From Cytophagales bacterium (GTDB taxonomy: Bacteria > Bacteroidota > Bacteroidia > Cytophagales > Spirosomataceae), in the NCBI GenBank assembly GCA_004292855.1, contig RDXN01000089.1, positions 1 through 33,517 on the forward strand: 33,517 nucleotides of DNA, written 5' to 3'. The notes beneath the pieces are model-generated. The model was not told where the DNA came from. It did not search any database and saw nothing but the letters and a program-made list of their open reading frames with translations. This document shows positions 22,223 through 25,209 of this stretch, one piece after another (position 1 is the stretch's first letter; each line of letters starts with the position of its first letter). The position numbers were made by a program, and so were the translations under genes.

Positions 22223-22253
22223 TTTGATTTTCTCGAAACACCTACTACTTTTG
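22223..22253 (+). promoter_or_regulatory. Consensus Bacteroidota promoter of the tRNA-fMet gene
   Basis: TTTG at 22223-22226, a 19-bp spacer and TACTTTTG at 22246-22253 match TTTG-N19-TAnnTTTG exactly. The predicted start falls just before the tRNA 5' end at 22266. Confidence 0.85.
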
Positions 22254-22265
22254 CACTCCCAACAG

Positions 22266-22627
22266 CGCGGGATGGAGCAGTTGGTAGCTCGTTGGGCTCA
22301 GCAATGCAACATCAATAGAACAGTCGTAAGAAGCACTAGCTTGCGATTGGCGAGTCGAAAAACTCAGACGTTGATGTTACGGGCAGCGTGAAAGGAAACT
22401 CTCACGTGTATCTTGTCAAATTCGGGGAAGCCGGTTGTGCGGTAATCCCGAGCCAAGCCAAGGCGAAAGCTGCGGAAGGTGTAGAGACTGAATGGCAGGC
22501 ACCCTACCACATAACTGTGCGGGTGAAGAGACAGTCCAGACCACAAACCTTGCAACGGGCAAGGGCAACGAAAGCTGTAGTGGTACGCATAACCCAAAGG
22601 TCGCTGGTTCGAGTCCAGCTCCCGCTA
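22266..22627 (+). tRNA. Initiator tRNA-fMet(CAU), interrupted by a group I intron
   Basis: Exons 22266-22298 (33 nt) and 22588-22627 (40 nt) join to a 73-nt tRNA with anticodon CAU. Initiator features are visible: a non-pairing C1/U72 end, the A11-U24 pair in the D stem, and three consecutive G-C pairs (GGG/CCC) next to the anticodon loop. T arm, variable loop and acceptor stem are all intact. The 3' CCA is not encoded (CTA follows A73). The gene has its own consensus promoter and a strong terminator. Functional initiator tRNA would need the intron to splice; whether another, uninterrupted copy exists elsewhere in the genome cannot be seen. Confidence 0.93.
22299..22587 (+). ncRNA. Group I (IC3-like) self-splicing intron in tRNA-fMet
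   Basis: A 289-nt ribozyme. The only boundaries that satisfy group I rules (exon ending in U, intron ending in G, correct spliced tRNA) place it between U33 and C34. Core elements in order: P (AAATTCGGGGAAGCC, about 22418-22432), Q (AATCCCGAGCCAAGC, 22444-22458), R (GTAGAGACTGAATGGCAGGC, about 22481-22500) and S (AAGAGACAGTCC, about 22526-22537). P2 is CGTGA/TCACG (22387-22406), P9 CCTTGC/GCAAGG (22548-22564). A guide GGC (22382-22384), directly before P2 as in the Azoarcus intron, can pair with the exon end GCU. Between splice site and guide lies an extra stem (22308-22315 with 22371-22378). No reading frame of significance lies inside. Confidence 0.92.
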
Positions 22628-22635
22628 CTAAGCGA

Positions 22636-22666
22636 AAGGTCACTGATTTCTCAGTGACCTTTTTTG
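22636..22666 (+). terminator. Intrinsic terminator after tRNA-fMet
   Basis: AAGGTCACTGA at 22636-22646 is exactly inverted at 22651-22661 with a 4-nt loop, followed by a T run to about 22665. It separates tRNA transcription from the endonuclease gene. Confidence 0.9.
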
Positions 22667-22693
22667 TTTATTTGAGCTTGACTTCTGAAACCA

Positions 22694-23176
22694 ATGCTCA
22701 CTAAACAAAAAGGCGACATCGCCGAGCAAGCCGTTATCCTAAAAGCCCTGCAACTAGGTTTCGGCGTCTGCAAACCCATCGGAGATCGTCTGCCCTACGA
22801 TTTGGTGTTCGATGTGGGGGGACGTTTGATGAAGATACAGGTAAAAAGTGCTTGGTTTGATGAAGGGCGGGGCAATTATGTGATTGATACACGCCGGACA
22901 AAGACCAACCGGCGACAGATGGTACGTTCGACCTATGCTGCTGATGACTTCGACTTTGCTATAGCCTTTATTGAGTTGTTGGGTATTTTCTATATTATTC
23001 CAATTAACATATTCACTAGCTATGGATCAGAAATCCATCTAGTCGAAACTGAAAAGCGGCAACGACAACCCAAATCGGCCTTATATCGTGAGGCTTGGGA
23101 TTTGTTGCTCCTACCCCCGCGTCAACTCGAAAATTGTGATCTCCGGGAGAATACCGACGCGGCCCGGGTAGCCTAG
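22694..23176 (+). CDS. PD-(D/E)XK homing endonuclease of the I-Ssp6803I type, free-standing
   Basis: A 160-residue nuclease matching the small PD-(D/E)XK endonuclease family that contains I-Ssp6803I, the enzyme encoded inside the Synechocystis tRNA-fMet group I intron. Visible catalytic pattern: Glu11 in KGDIAEQA, Asp36 in RLPYDLVFDV, and Gln49-x-Lys51 in MKIQVKSAW. From memory the I-Ssp6803I active site has the same residues at the same numbers. Then come NYVIDTRRTKTN, DFDFAIAFIELLGIFYIIP and a tail. Here the gene is 66 bp beyond the tRNA end, outside the intron and behind a terminator, so it needs its own promoter. Its likely target is the intron-less tRNA-fMet allele. The last 22 codons run antisense to the 3' end of the phosphoesterase gene. 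A general PD-(D/E)XK nuclease role is the alternative. Confidence 0.82.
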   Translation: MLTKQKGDIAEQAVILKALQLGFGVCKPIGDRLPYDLVFDVGGRLMKIQVKSAWFDEGRGNYVIDTRRTKTNRRQMVRSTYAADDFDFAIAFIELLGIFYIIPINIFTSYGSEIHLVETEKRQRQPKSALYREAWDLLLLPPRQLENCDLRENTDAARVA

Positions 23177-24391
23177 ATAACCAAAGCCCCGGTTGACGTA
23201 GAGTTGTTGGTCGCCCTGACGGTATAGGCCTGCCCACTGCTTGTACACGTATTGCGACGGACTCCATTTGAAGCCGCCAATCTCCACACCAAACTGCATC
23301 CCGTGGGTGTGGCCCGCAAACATAGCGTCGATGCCGGGGAATTGGGGGCGAACTTGTGCTTCCCAGTGGCTGGGGTCGTGCGAGAGGAGCAGCTTCACGG
23401 GGTAGTCTTCGGTGCCCCGGTAGGCATTGGCAAGGTTGCCGTATTTGGGCCAACGTTGGCCCGCCCCCCAGTTTTCAATTCCAATCAAGGCAATTTTATC
23501 GCCGTCTTGGGTGAAAATTCGGTGTTCGTCGAGCATCAGGTTCCAGCCTAAGAGTCGGTGGGCTTCCTTCAGGTTACGAAGATTCTGTTGTTTTACCTGT
23601 TGGCTTGGCCACTGCACGTAATCGCCGTAGTCGTGATTGCCGAGGGTGGAATAAACGCCGAGTGGGGCCTTCACGTGCCGGAAAATCGGGATATAGTCCT
23701 GCACCTCGTCGGCGGTGTTGTTGACGAGGTCGCCGGTGAAGAACACCATGTCGGGCTTCTCCTTGAGCAACATTTCGACGCCCCCTTTCACGGCGGTTTT
23801 GTTAAAAAACGAGCCGGAGTGAATGTCAGAGAGTTGGGCAATACGCATCCCCTCGAAGCCTTTGGGCAAGTTTTTCAGGGCCAGCCGAACCCGACGAACG
23901 CGGTAATCGTGGGCACCCGACAGAATACCCCATGAGAAACTCACGAGCGGAATAGCCCCGGCTATGAGGGCCGTTTTCATCAGGAAATCAGAGCGGGGAA
24001 TAGCGTCGGTTTTAGGGATGTCAGTGCGGGCCGCGTCGTTGGCGGTTTTTTGCACGTCGGGTTCGTAGAAAAGCGAGATTATCCACCGGAAAAACCGCCC
24101 GATGTCATCAATCAGCACAAACAGCAGGGCAAACACCTTCGACAAATACGGAATAATCACCCCAGCATACAGAAACGTGCGCGTGTGCCGGTCGAGCAGG
24201 TCGGGGGGCGACAACTGCATGAACAAAAACAGCCCGATGGAGAGTGCCGTGAAACCCCAGTAAACAAGGCCGATAATACGCTGTGTGTCGTCGGAGAGGT
24301 TGCGGCTCACCGTGCGAACGGCCTGATACACATACCAATCAAGGGCCAGAAACACGAGGCCAATCAGGATAAAGAAGAGAATACGGTTCAT
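23111..24391 (-). CDS. Membrane-anchored calcineurin-like metallophosphoesterase
   Basis: A 426-residue protein with an N-terminal membrane region of about four helices (ILFFILIGLVFLALDWYVYQ, IIGLVYWGFTALSIGLFLFM, FLYAGVIIPYLSKVFALLFV, later TALIAGAIPLVSFSWGIL). A C-terminal metallophosphoesterase domain follows: AQLSDIHSG, FFTGDLVNN, STLGNHDYG, LLLSHDPS and FAGHTHGMQFG carry the metal-binding Asp, His and Asn ligands. This architecture resembles YkuE/YaeI-type enzymes, some of which act on UDP-diacylglucosamine or other lipids. The ATG at 24391 starts the first membrane helix; longer starts overlap the LytTR gene. The final 66 nt overlap the endonuclease gene on the other strand. It follows the LytTR regulator by 14 bp, so it is probably in the same operon. 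Confidence 0.88.
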   Translation of the reverse strand: MNRILFFILIGLVFLALDWYVYQAVRTVSRNLSDDTQRIIGLVYWGFTALSIGLFLFMQLSPPDLLDRHTRTFLYAGVIIPYLSKVFALLFVLIDDIGRFFRWIISLFYEPDVQKTANDAARTDIPKTDAIPRSDFLMKTALIAGAIPLVSFSWGILSGAHDYRVRRVRLALKNLPKGFEGMRIAQLSDIHSGSFFNKTAVKGGVEMLLKEKPDMVFFTGDLVNNTADEVQDYIPIFRHVKAPLGVYSTLGNHDYGDYVQWPSQQVKQQNLRNLKEAHRLLGWNLMLDEHRIFTQDGDKIALIGIENWGAGQRWPKYGNLANAYRGTEDYPVKLLLSHDPSHWEAQVRPQFPGIDAMFAGHTHGMQFGVEIGGFKWSPSQYVYKQWAGLYRQGDQQLYVNRGFGYLGYPGRVGILPEITIFELTRG

Positions 24392-24405
24392 ACAGAAGAA
24401 GACGC

Positions 24406-25209
24406 TCAGCCGATCTTGCCGGAGTTGACGTAGAAGTCGGAGAGCAGGCTCAGGAACTCCTCTTTGCGCCGACGCGAGACCTCGACCTCGGTGCTGTCGG
24501 TGAGCCAAACCTGCCCGCCATCGCCCTTCACGTAGCGTTTAATGTGTTCAAGATTGACAATGTTCGACTGGTGAACACGGAAAAAATAGTAATTGTCTAA
24601 AATCTCTTCGTATTCTTTCAACAACCGCGACACCACAATGGGTTTGCCGTTAGTCAAATGGAACTTGGTGTACGACCCCAACGATTCGCACTGGATAATG
24701 TCGGTCATCTGCACAAAGTGGATGCCCTCGGCAGTGGGCAGGGCAATGCGCTGATTGGCGTTGGGCTTACGCTGGTTGAGTCCACTTGGCTGGGGGGCGT
24801 GAATCTGCTCCTGCAAAATGCTCAGTTGCTGCGGGCTAACGGTGGCTAACTGCGTTTTGCTCTTTTGCACGGCGGCCTGTAGCTCGTCGGGGTCGATGGG
24901 TTTAAGCAGGTAATCGATAGCACTGAACCGAAACGCCCGGATAGCGTATTCTTGGTAAGCAGTGGTGAAAACAACGCCAAAATCGGCCTTCTCGAAACTG
25001 GCCAACAGATCGAAACCACTCTTGCCGGGCATCTGAATATCCAGAAACACCAGATTGGGATGGTGATGTCGGATTAGTTCGATCCCTGAATCGACGTTTT
25101 TAGCTTCGCCACAAATCTGCACGTCGGGGCAAAGGTATTGCAGAAGACCCGTCAGGGCTTGCCGGGCATTGGTTTCATCGTCGATCACGACCGCACGCAG
25201 AGCTTCCAT
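24406..25209 (-). CDS. LytTR-family response regulator
   Basis: A 267-residue response regulator. The receiver (1-120) has VVIDDETNAR, phospho-acceptor Asp57 in LVFLDIQMPGKSGFDLL, the Thr in VVFTTAYQEYAIRAF and Lys in YLLKPIDPDEL. After a Gln-rich linker comes a LytTR DNA-binding domain from about 160: ALPTAEGIHFVQMTDIIQCE, SYTKFHLTNGKPIVVSRLLK, FFRVHQSNIVNLEHIKRYVK, ending VEVSRRRKEEFLSLL. It starts 20 bp after the stop of the LytS-type kinase, its evident partner, and precedes the phosphoesterase, which may be a target or simply cotranscribed. Confidence 0.94.
   Translation of the reverse strand: MEALRAVVIDDETNARQALTGLLQYLCPDVQICGEAKNVDSGIELIRHHHPNLVFLDIQMPGKSGFDLLASFEKADFGVVFTTAYQEYAIRAFRFSAIDYLLKPIDPDELQAAVQKSKTQLATVSPQQLSILQEQIHAPQPSGLNQRKPNANQRIALPTAEGIHFVQMTDIIQCESLGSYTKFHLTNGKPIVVSRLLKEYEEILDNYYFFRVHQSNIVNLEHIKRYVKGDGGQVWLTDSTEVEVSRRRKEEFLSLLSDFYVNSGKIG

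Follow-up and report, generated by a model that had tools for sequence, protein, structure and literature searches.

The tRNA-fMet gene of a Cytophagales bacterium is split by a group I intron that contains no nuclease gene, and a free-standing homing endonuclease gene of the I-Ssp6803I type follows it. The intron and the downstream nuclease most likely form a chromosomal collaborative-homing pair. Cutting, co-conversion and the harm of intron loss are inferred in this reading, and the support that takes relatedness into account is thin. The window is the whole stretch of DNA that was analysed (33,517 nt, contig RDXN01000089.1). Its relevant features are the following:

22223..22253, + strand: likely tRNA-fMet promoter (TTTG, 19 nt, TACTTTTG), read by eye
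22266..22298, + strand: tRNA-fMet 5′ exon, ending in GGGCT (U33), from sequence reading
22299..22587, + strand: 289-nt group I intron with no nuclease gene in it, located 5′ of the CAU anticodon, with a final G
22588..22627, + strand: tRNA-fMet 3′ exon, starting with CATAACCC, from sequence reading and homology
22634..22669, + strand: intrinsic terminator (hairpin 22634-22663 plus T run) between the tRNA and the nuclease gene
22694..23176, + strand: free-standing homing endonuclease gene, I-Ssp6803I-type PD-(D/E)XK, 160 aa, from ORF, Pfam and PDB matches

The ORF at 22694-23176 matched the Pfam family PDDEXK_5 (PF11645) with 160.3 bits (E = 3.6e-47) over profile positions 1-137 of 138, far above the cut-off of 26.1 bits. 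The protein also matched PDB entry 2ost (205 bits, E = 4.5e-60), which is titled 'Putative endonuclease' and which we take to be I-Ssp6803I. The catalytic residues of the I-Ssp6803I family are E11, D36, Q49 and K51. All four are present in the window protein and invariant in a six-sequence alignment. The ORF is a close homologue of I-Ssp6803I, and its cleavage activity is inferred from that homologue. It is the sole match of its kind in its own genome. The gene starts 66 nt past the 3′-end of the tRNA-fMet. Inspection by eye of the short stretch between the tRNA and the nuclease revealed no separate promoter, so expression of the gene may need read-through of the terminator. The poorly conserved 3′ tail of the gene (23111-23176) overlaps the end of an opposite-strand ORF (23111-24508), which looks metallophosphoesterase-like by eye.

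The tRNA-fMet is interrupted between U33 and C34 (GGGCT^...G^CATAACCC), and homology with intron-less relatives restarts at 22588. ARAGORN missed the split tRNA gene in the window; both halves are plain by eye. The putative promoter elements of the tRNA-fMet, judged by eye alone, would fit the Bacteroidetes consensus. The Rfam model Intron_gpI (RF00028) matched the window intron at a relaxed threshold (47.4 bits, E = 4.8e-11). The Rfam gathering score is 50, so the window intron lies slightly below it and is missed at that threshold. Homologous introns scored above the gathering score in 17 of the 18 loci scanned, the exception being L038. In an alignment of 23 introns, 51 pairs were predicted, and compensatory changes were found in 32 of them. 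The window intron is a group I intron, with U before it, G at its end and a conserved core and structure; its splicing is inferred. No nuclease of the I-Ssp6803I family was found within it, the only match in the genome being the gene at 22694-23176. The terminator hairpin has an energy of -18.2 kcal/mol, and by the script criterion a terminator was present in 36/36 loci of the downstream type, including the window.

The earlier note, made from the sequence alone, had assigned the gene to the I-Ssp6803I family by the pattern E11, D36 and Q49-x-K51, called the tRNA-fMet intron ORF-less, and placed a free-standing gene past the 3′ exon and a terminator. These claims held. The first is supported by PF11645, 2ost and the alignment, the second by the absence of a nuclease gene from the 289-nt group I intron, and for the third the coordinates 22694-23176 were correct. 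The PDDEXK_5 HMM search that it proposed was passed (160.3 against 26.1 bits). Its statement that the founding member lies inside a tRNA-fMet intron agrees with PMC1995217.

Genome contigs, one genome per species, were scanned with a profile made from six copies of the nuclease, four of them downstream of the tRNA and two inside the intron. The scan gave 143 relatives, and the best 80 were kept. With the window and two viral loci added, 83 loci were classified. The nuclease gene was inside the tRNA-fMet intron in 40/83 loci and free-standing downstream in 36/83 including the window (35/80 genome loci), some of which are close relatives. One gene was upstream of the tRNA, two loci were truncated by a contig end, and four (L027, L058 and both viral loci) contained no tRNA-fMet. 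Because the 80 loci are those of the 143 closest to the query, the inside/downstream ratio of 40:35 is not a census. The intron site U33/C34 was identical in all 77 loci with both exons, the window included. All 36 downstream genes are on the tRNA strand. Their starts are mostly 53-133 nt past the tRNA, with exceptions at 216, 239, 808 and 2085 nt. The downstream layout was found in Bacteroidota, Cyanobacteria and a Planctomycete. As it is common to 35/80 genome loci, the layout is not a chance arrangement.

The state of the nuclease was compared with the presence of an intron-less target in two families. The first is family f1, which holds Spirosoma and which we take to be the GTDB Spirosomaceae. 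Its 160 genomes were scanned for the joined-exon target with at most 2 mismatches. The target was found in 121/160 genomes and the nuclease gene in 11/160. None of the 9 genomes with an intact nuclease had the target, compared with 120 of the 149 without the gene (Fisher 1.2e-6). G453 is the only Spirosomaceae genome with both gene and target, and its gene has an in-frame stop. Its visible lesion is this single stop, so intron loss can follow soon after the death of the nuclease, or conceivably precede it. In G469 the nuclease gene is split between frames and the intron is kept. Neither gene nor target match was found in 29 genomes, which were not all classified. They include G227 and G521, in which the intron is present by sequence and the nuclease is absent. 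Many others of the 29 belong to genera whose stem variants are probably beyond the mismatch limit.

The second family is the Nostocaceae, to which Nostoc sp. FACHB-280 belongs, and 192 genomes were surveyed. All 28 intact nuclease genes occur with the intron (28/28; L208 through the wider locus L034), and the intron is also kept with all 7 broken genes. The 11 eroded remnants are all downstream of an intron-less tRNA-fMet (11/11), 10 of them within ~300 nt of it and the remaining one 1.3 kb away. In another seven genomes the intron is present without an adjacent gene of the I-Ssp6803I kind. G669 (masked) and G681 (no match) were unclassified. In the intact genome G554, the target scan matched only a second CAU tRNA, whose stem reads CAGG.

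Intron-less CAU tRNAs with a CAGG anticodon stem are also present in G408 and G554 (intact) and in G420 (broken). They lie at L120, L121 and G554:C7:5401-5431, and in L120 and L121 they stand among other tRNA-like sequences by eye. It is possible that such a tRNA is a resistant target. Many Nostocaceae also carry a distant relative of the nuclease (27-37% identical), with frames mostly >200 aa (e.g., G602:C243:9983-10297). An early target scan with a loose pattern covered 50 of the 80 genomes; most of its hits were noise, and longer patterns were used instead. The sequence GGGCTCATAACCC was absent from all listed loose-pattern hits in these 50 genomes, and L120-L122 gave exact loose-pattern matches through CAU tRNAs with other stems.

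In both families, an intact nuclease and an intact intron-less target never occurred in one genome (0/37). The nuclease genes beside an intron-less tRNA-fMet number 12 (1 in Spirosomaceae, 11 in Nostocaceae), and all of them are broken or eroded. The tRNA-fMet was intron-less with 0/37 intact genes versus 12/20 degenerate ones (Fisher 1.8e-7). This is a graded series: intact genes are without an intact target (37/37), broken genes mostly keep the intron (8/9), and eroded genes are intron-less (11/11). The Fisher tests (1.2e-6, 5e-26 and 1.8e-7) ignore kinship. The absence counts are limited, as the surveyed genomes may be incomplete.

Relatedness was considered on trees. The gene era adjoins the tRNA-fMet in the window and in its family relatives, which indicates that the tRNA-fMet locus is orthologous in the family. 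On an era tree the intron state changed 6 times, and starred branches forced every one of these changes. The era tree for the paired test had 51 rows, after removal of four duplicate named genomes and of loci in which era was incomplete. The intron and the nuclease changed together in 5-6 of 6 independent pairs (sign test, p = 0.03-0.06). The Nostocaceae tree had only 3 supported independent changes of intron state (5 in all), and the sign test was not significant. The sister species G151 and G533 have collinear flanks; G151 has both inserts and G533, a draft genome of 82% completeness, has neither. Homology between them runs up to the 5′ splice site, returns over the 3′ exon plus terminator (92%), breaks off at the nuclease gene (562 nt versus 24 nt) and returns once more beyond it. 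A co-conversion mosaic was looked for in this pair and was not seen. In a second sister pair, G528/G059, a mosaic of upstream sites in G528, set against G059 and G526, fits co-conversion at three cut-offs (p = 0.003, 0.006 and 0.03).

The distances of the nuclease and the intron core were correlated, with r = 0.77 in the downstream class, 0.46 in the inside class and 0.63 overall, and 0 of 2000 permutations were as high. Joint presence and correlated distances could possibly result from plain vertical linkage. The idea of a transfer from Flavobacterium sp. SUN052 (L025) was abandoned, as era and der on its contig are 83% and 88% identical to those of the window. This 8.1-Mb genome is likely a misnamed relative of Spirosoma.

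The genome surveys support the proposal of the earlier note that the pair is a split homing system, in which movement by co-conversion is still an inference. The note regarded the gene occurring widely beside intron-less tRNA-fMet genes as a refutation. Such neighbours were found (1/160 and 11/192), all broken or eroded. The survey of co-occurrence that it suggested gave 0/37 intact nucleases with an intact target and joint change in 5-6/6 pairs. Two corrections are needed: the layout is common (35/80 genome loci) and not a curiosity, and that the joined exons are cleaved is so far an inference from the homologue.

The placement of the gene relative to the intron was also examined on trees. 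Changes of position numbered 6 on the best nuclease tree, 7 on a quick nuclease tree (2 forced by starred branches) and 13 on the intron-core tree (5 forced by starred branches). The nuclease protein tree excludes the viral L089 and two short broken copies, L050 and L060. Position switches on both the nuclease and the intron-core trees indicate that placement is labile, and the number of switches is uncertain. Because the trees are midpoint-rooted, the direction of the moves between inside and outside is unsettled. Had genes moved from inside to outside, remnants of the intron core could be expected after them; none were found after the free-standing genes. Significant core matches in L030 were rejected as a vestige; they belong to its own intron, which is situated after the gene.

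In L027 and L058, the nuclease gene is remote from the tRNA, and an intron-bearing tRNA-fMet lies elsewhere in both genomes. By eye, a copied tRNA-fMet 3′ tip and terminator precede the nuclease gene in L027, L058 and L176 (G468). An element integrated at the tRNA 3′-end may have carried the gene off and split the pair, a possibility that rests on inspection by eye. G468 is apparently the genome of L027, and its nuclease gene is on another contig.

In the phage collection, 20 records matched part of the protein, and none covered 80% of it. The plasmid collection contained no match to the nuclease. The viral contigs contained 2 relatives of the nuclease, and no tRNA-fMet was found in the ~3 kb available around them. 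There is therefore no sign in these collections that the system is phage-borne. The partial matches (31-69% of the nuclease, mostly in the N-terminal half) came from Salmonella, Klebsiella, Vibrio, haloarchaeal and other phages.

According to the collaborative-homing model, the nuclease would recognise the joined anticodon region of the tRNA-fMet, GGGCT^CATAACCC. The target of I-Ssp6803I is the anticodon stem-loop, which fits the intron site. Because the intron splits this target, the tRNA-fMet of the host would be immune. On encountering an intron-less allele, the nuclease would cut it, and repair from the intron-bearing copy would transfer everything from the intron through the 3′ exon and the terminator to the downstream nuclease gene. 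A nuclease encoded outside the intron would stay live after precise intron loss and would then meet an intact target in an essential gene, and the intron would therefore be losable only once the nuclease is dead. The homology, the architecture, the group I structure, the selection on related genes, the joint presence and absence, and the lack of any intact nuclease with an intact target are direct observations. For recognition, cutting and co-conversion there is only inference from the homologue, without biochemistry. Introns without a nuclease exist (7 Nostocaceae, G227 and G521), so the intron can persist without it. A bolder reading is that the intron is the immunity half of a poison-antidote pair, protects the essential initiator-tRNA gene from the adjacent nuclease and cannot be lost until the nuclease dies. 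We lean slightly against this reading; if it is true, the graded series of intact, broken and eroded genes is its signature.

Three other explanations were considered. The first, which we regard as unlikely, is that the gene is a relic, an intron-encoded nuclease that was displaced by rearrangement, is now decaying and does not home from outside. Broken and eroded copies do exist (7 and 11 in the 192 Nostocaceae, 2 in the 160 Spirosomaceae). However, both surveys found more intact than decayed free-standing copies (9 vs 2 in the 160 Spirosomaceae; 28 vs 18 in the 192 Nostocaceae), and the layout is seen repeatedly, in Bacteroidota, in Cyanobacteria and in a Planctomycete. E11, D36, Q49 and K51 are kept in 35/35 full-length downstream copies, the 36th copy (L060) having an early stop. 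The dN/dS was 0.05-0.19 in the downstream-class pairs with computable dS, which also argues against a relic, and 0.03-0.15 in three inside pairs. Among the 18 pairs, dS was saturated in 4, including the window pair, and was >2.5 in two more. Between the window gene and its nearest relative L025, dN was 0.11 and dS was saturated, so the selection on the window gene itself is unmeasured.

The second explanation, also improbable, is that the partners are independent. The gene would home alone into the 3′ flank of the tRNA-fMet, and the intron would merely tolerate it. The introns without the gene (7 Nostocaceae, G227 and G521) speak for this explanation, as do genes that are 0.8-2.1 kb away or at another locus. 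Against it, an intact gene and an intact intron-less target were found together in 0/37 cases, and intron and gene change jointly in 5-6/6 independent pairs. The known site of the I-Ssp6803I family is moreover the intron site. The third explanation, that the host has recruited the gene for another role (e.g., repair or defence) and that its place near the tRNA is a leftover of its history, fits the strong purifying selection in computable pairs but is very unlikely given the patchy distribution within the family (11/160), the decay in many lineages and the association with intron state.

The preferred reading, a collaborative-homing pair, predicts that removal of the intron would be tolerated only without the nuclease. 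One pair occurs in both positions in many phyla (of 80 loci, 40 have the nuclease inside and 35 downstream), and in one family empty, broken and intron-only states are found as well. How the nuclease moved, and in which direction, is therefore testable. Because inside and outside states have switched more than once, existing pairs offer a test of how composite mobile introns arose.

None of the titles and opening abstracts searched reported a free-standing homologue of I-Ssp6803I next to a tRNA intron; most full texts were outside this scope. Prior mention in structural papers on I-Ssp6803I or in Bonocora and Shub 2001 is not excluded. Passages of PMC3943268 and PMC11835236 contained nothing on such a layout. 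Cyanobacterial tRNA introns are discussed in PMC5733544, and the words 'endonuclease' and 'homing' are absent from its main text. The tRNA-fMet of Nodularia spumigena is intron-free (PMC3610870).

The system most similar to the window is I-Ssp6803I of Synechocystis, which shares the nuclease family, the tRNA gene and a homologous intron. It is the PD-(D/E)XK case with the gene inside the tRNA-fMet intron (PMC1995217). The intron of the Synechocystis salina locus L075 sits at U33/C34, as does that of the window. In Synechocystis, the gene lies inside a 655-nt intron (PCC 6803 according to PMC1995217; the L075 intron is also 655 nt), whereas in the window it is separated from the tRNA by 66 nt that include a terminator, and no nuclease gene is present in the intron. 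The T4 Seg-type phage nucleases of intronless homing are likewise outside any intron, but they have no intron partner at the target. They belong to another fold family. Collaborative (trans) homing has been described for two phages, together with a model in which a free-standing nuclease moves into an intron (PMC3984707). It shows the same convergence of a free-standing nuclease and an ORF-less group I intron on one site. The window differs from it in the bacterial chromosome, the tRNA gene, the PD-(D/E)XK nuclease and the existence of inside and outside forms. What is new here, with homing itself inferred, is collaborative homing in a tRNA gene, by a nuclease of the PD-(D/E)XK fold, on a chromosome, and with the inside and outside states of one pair.
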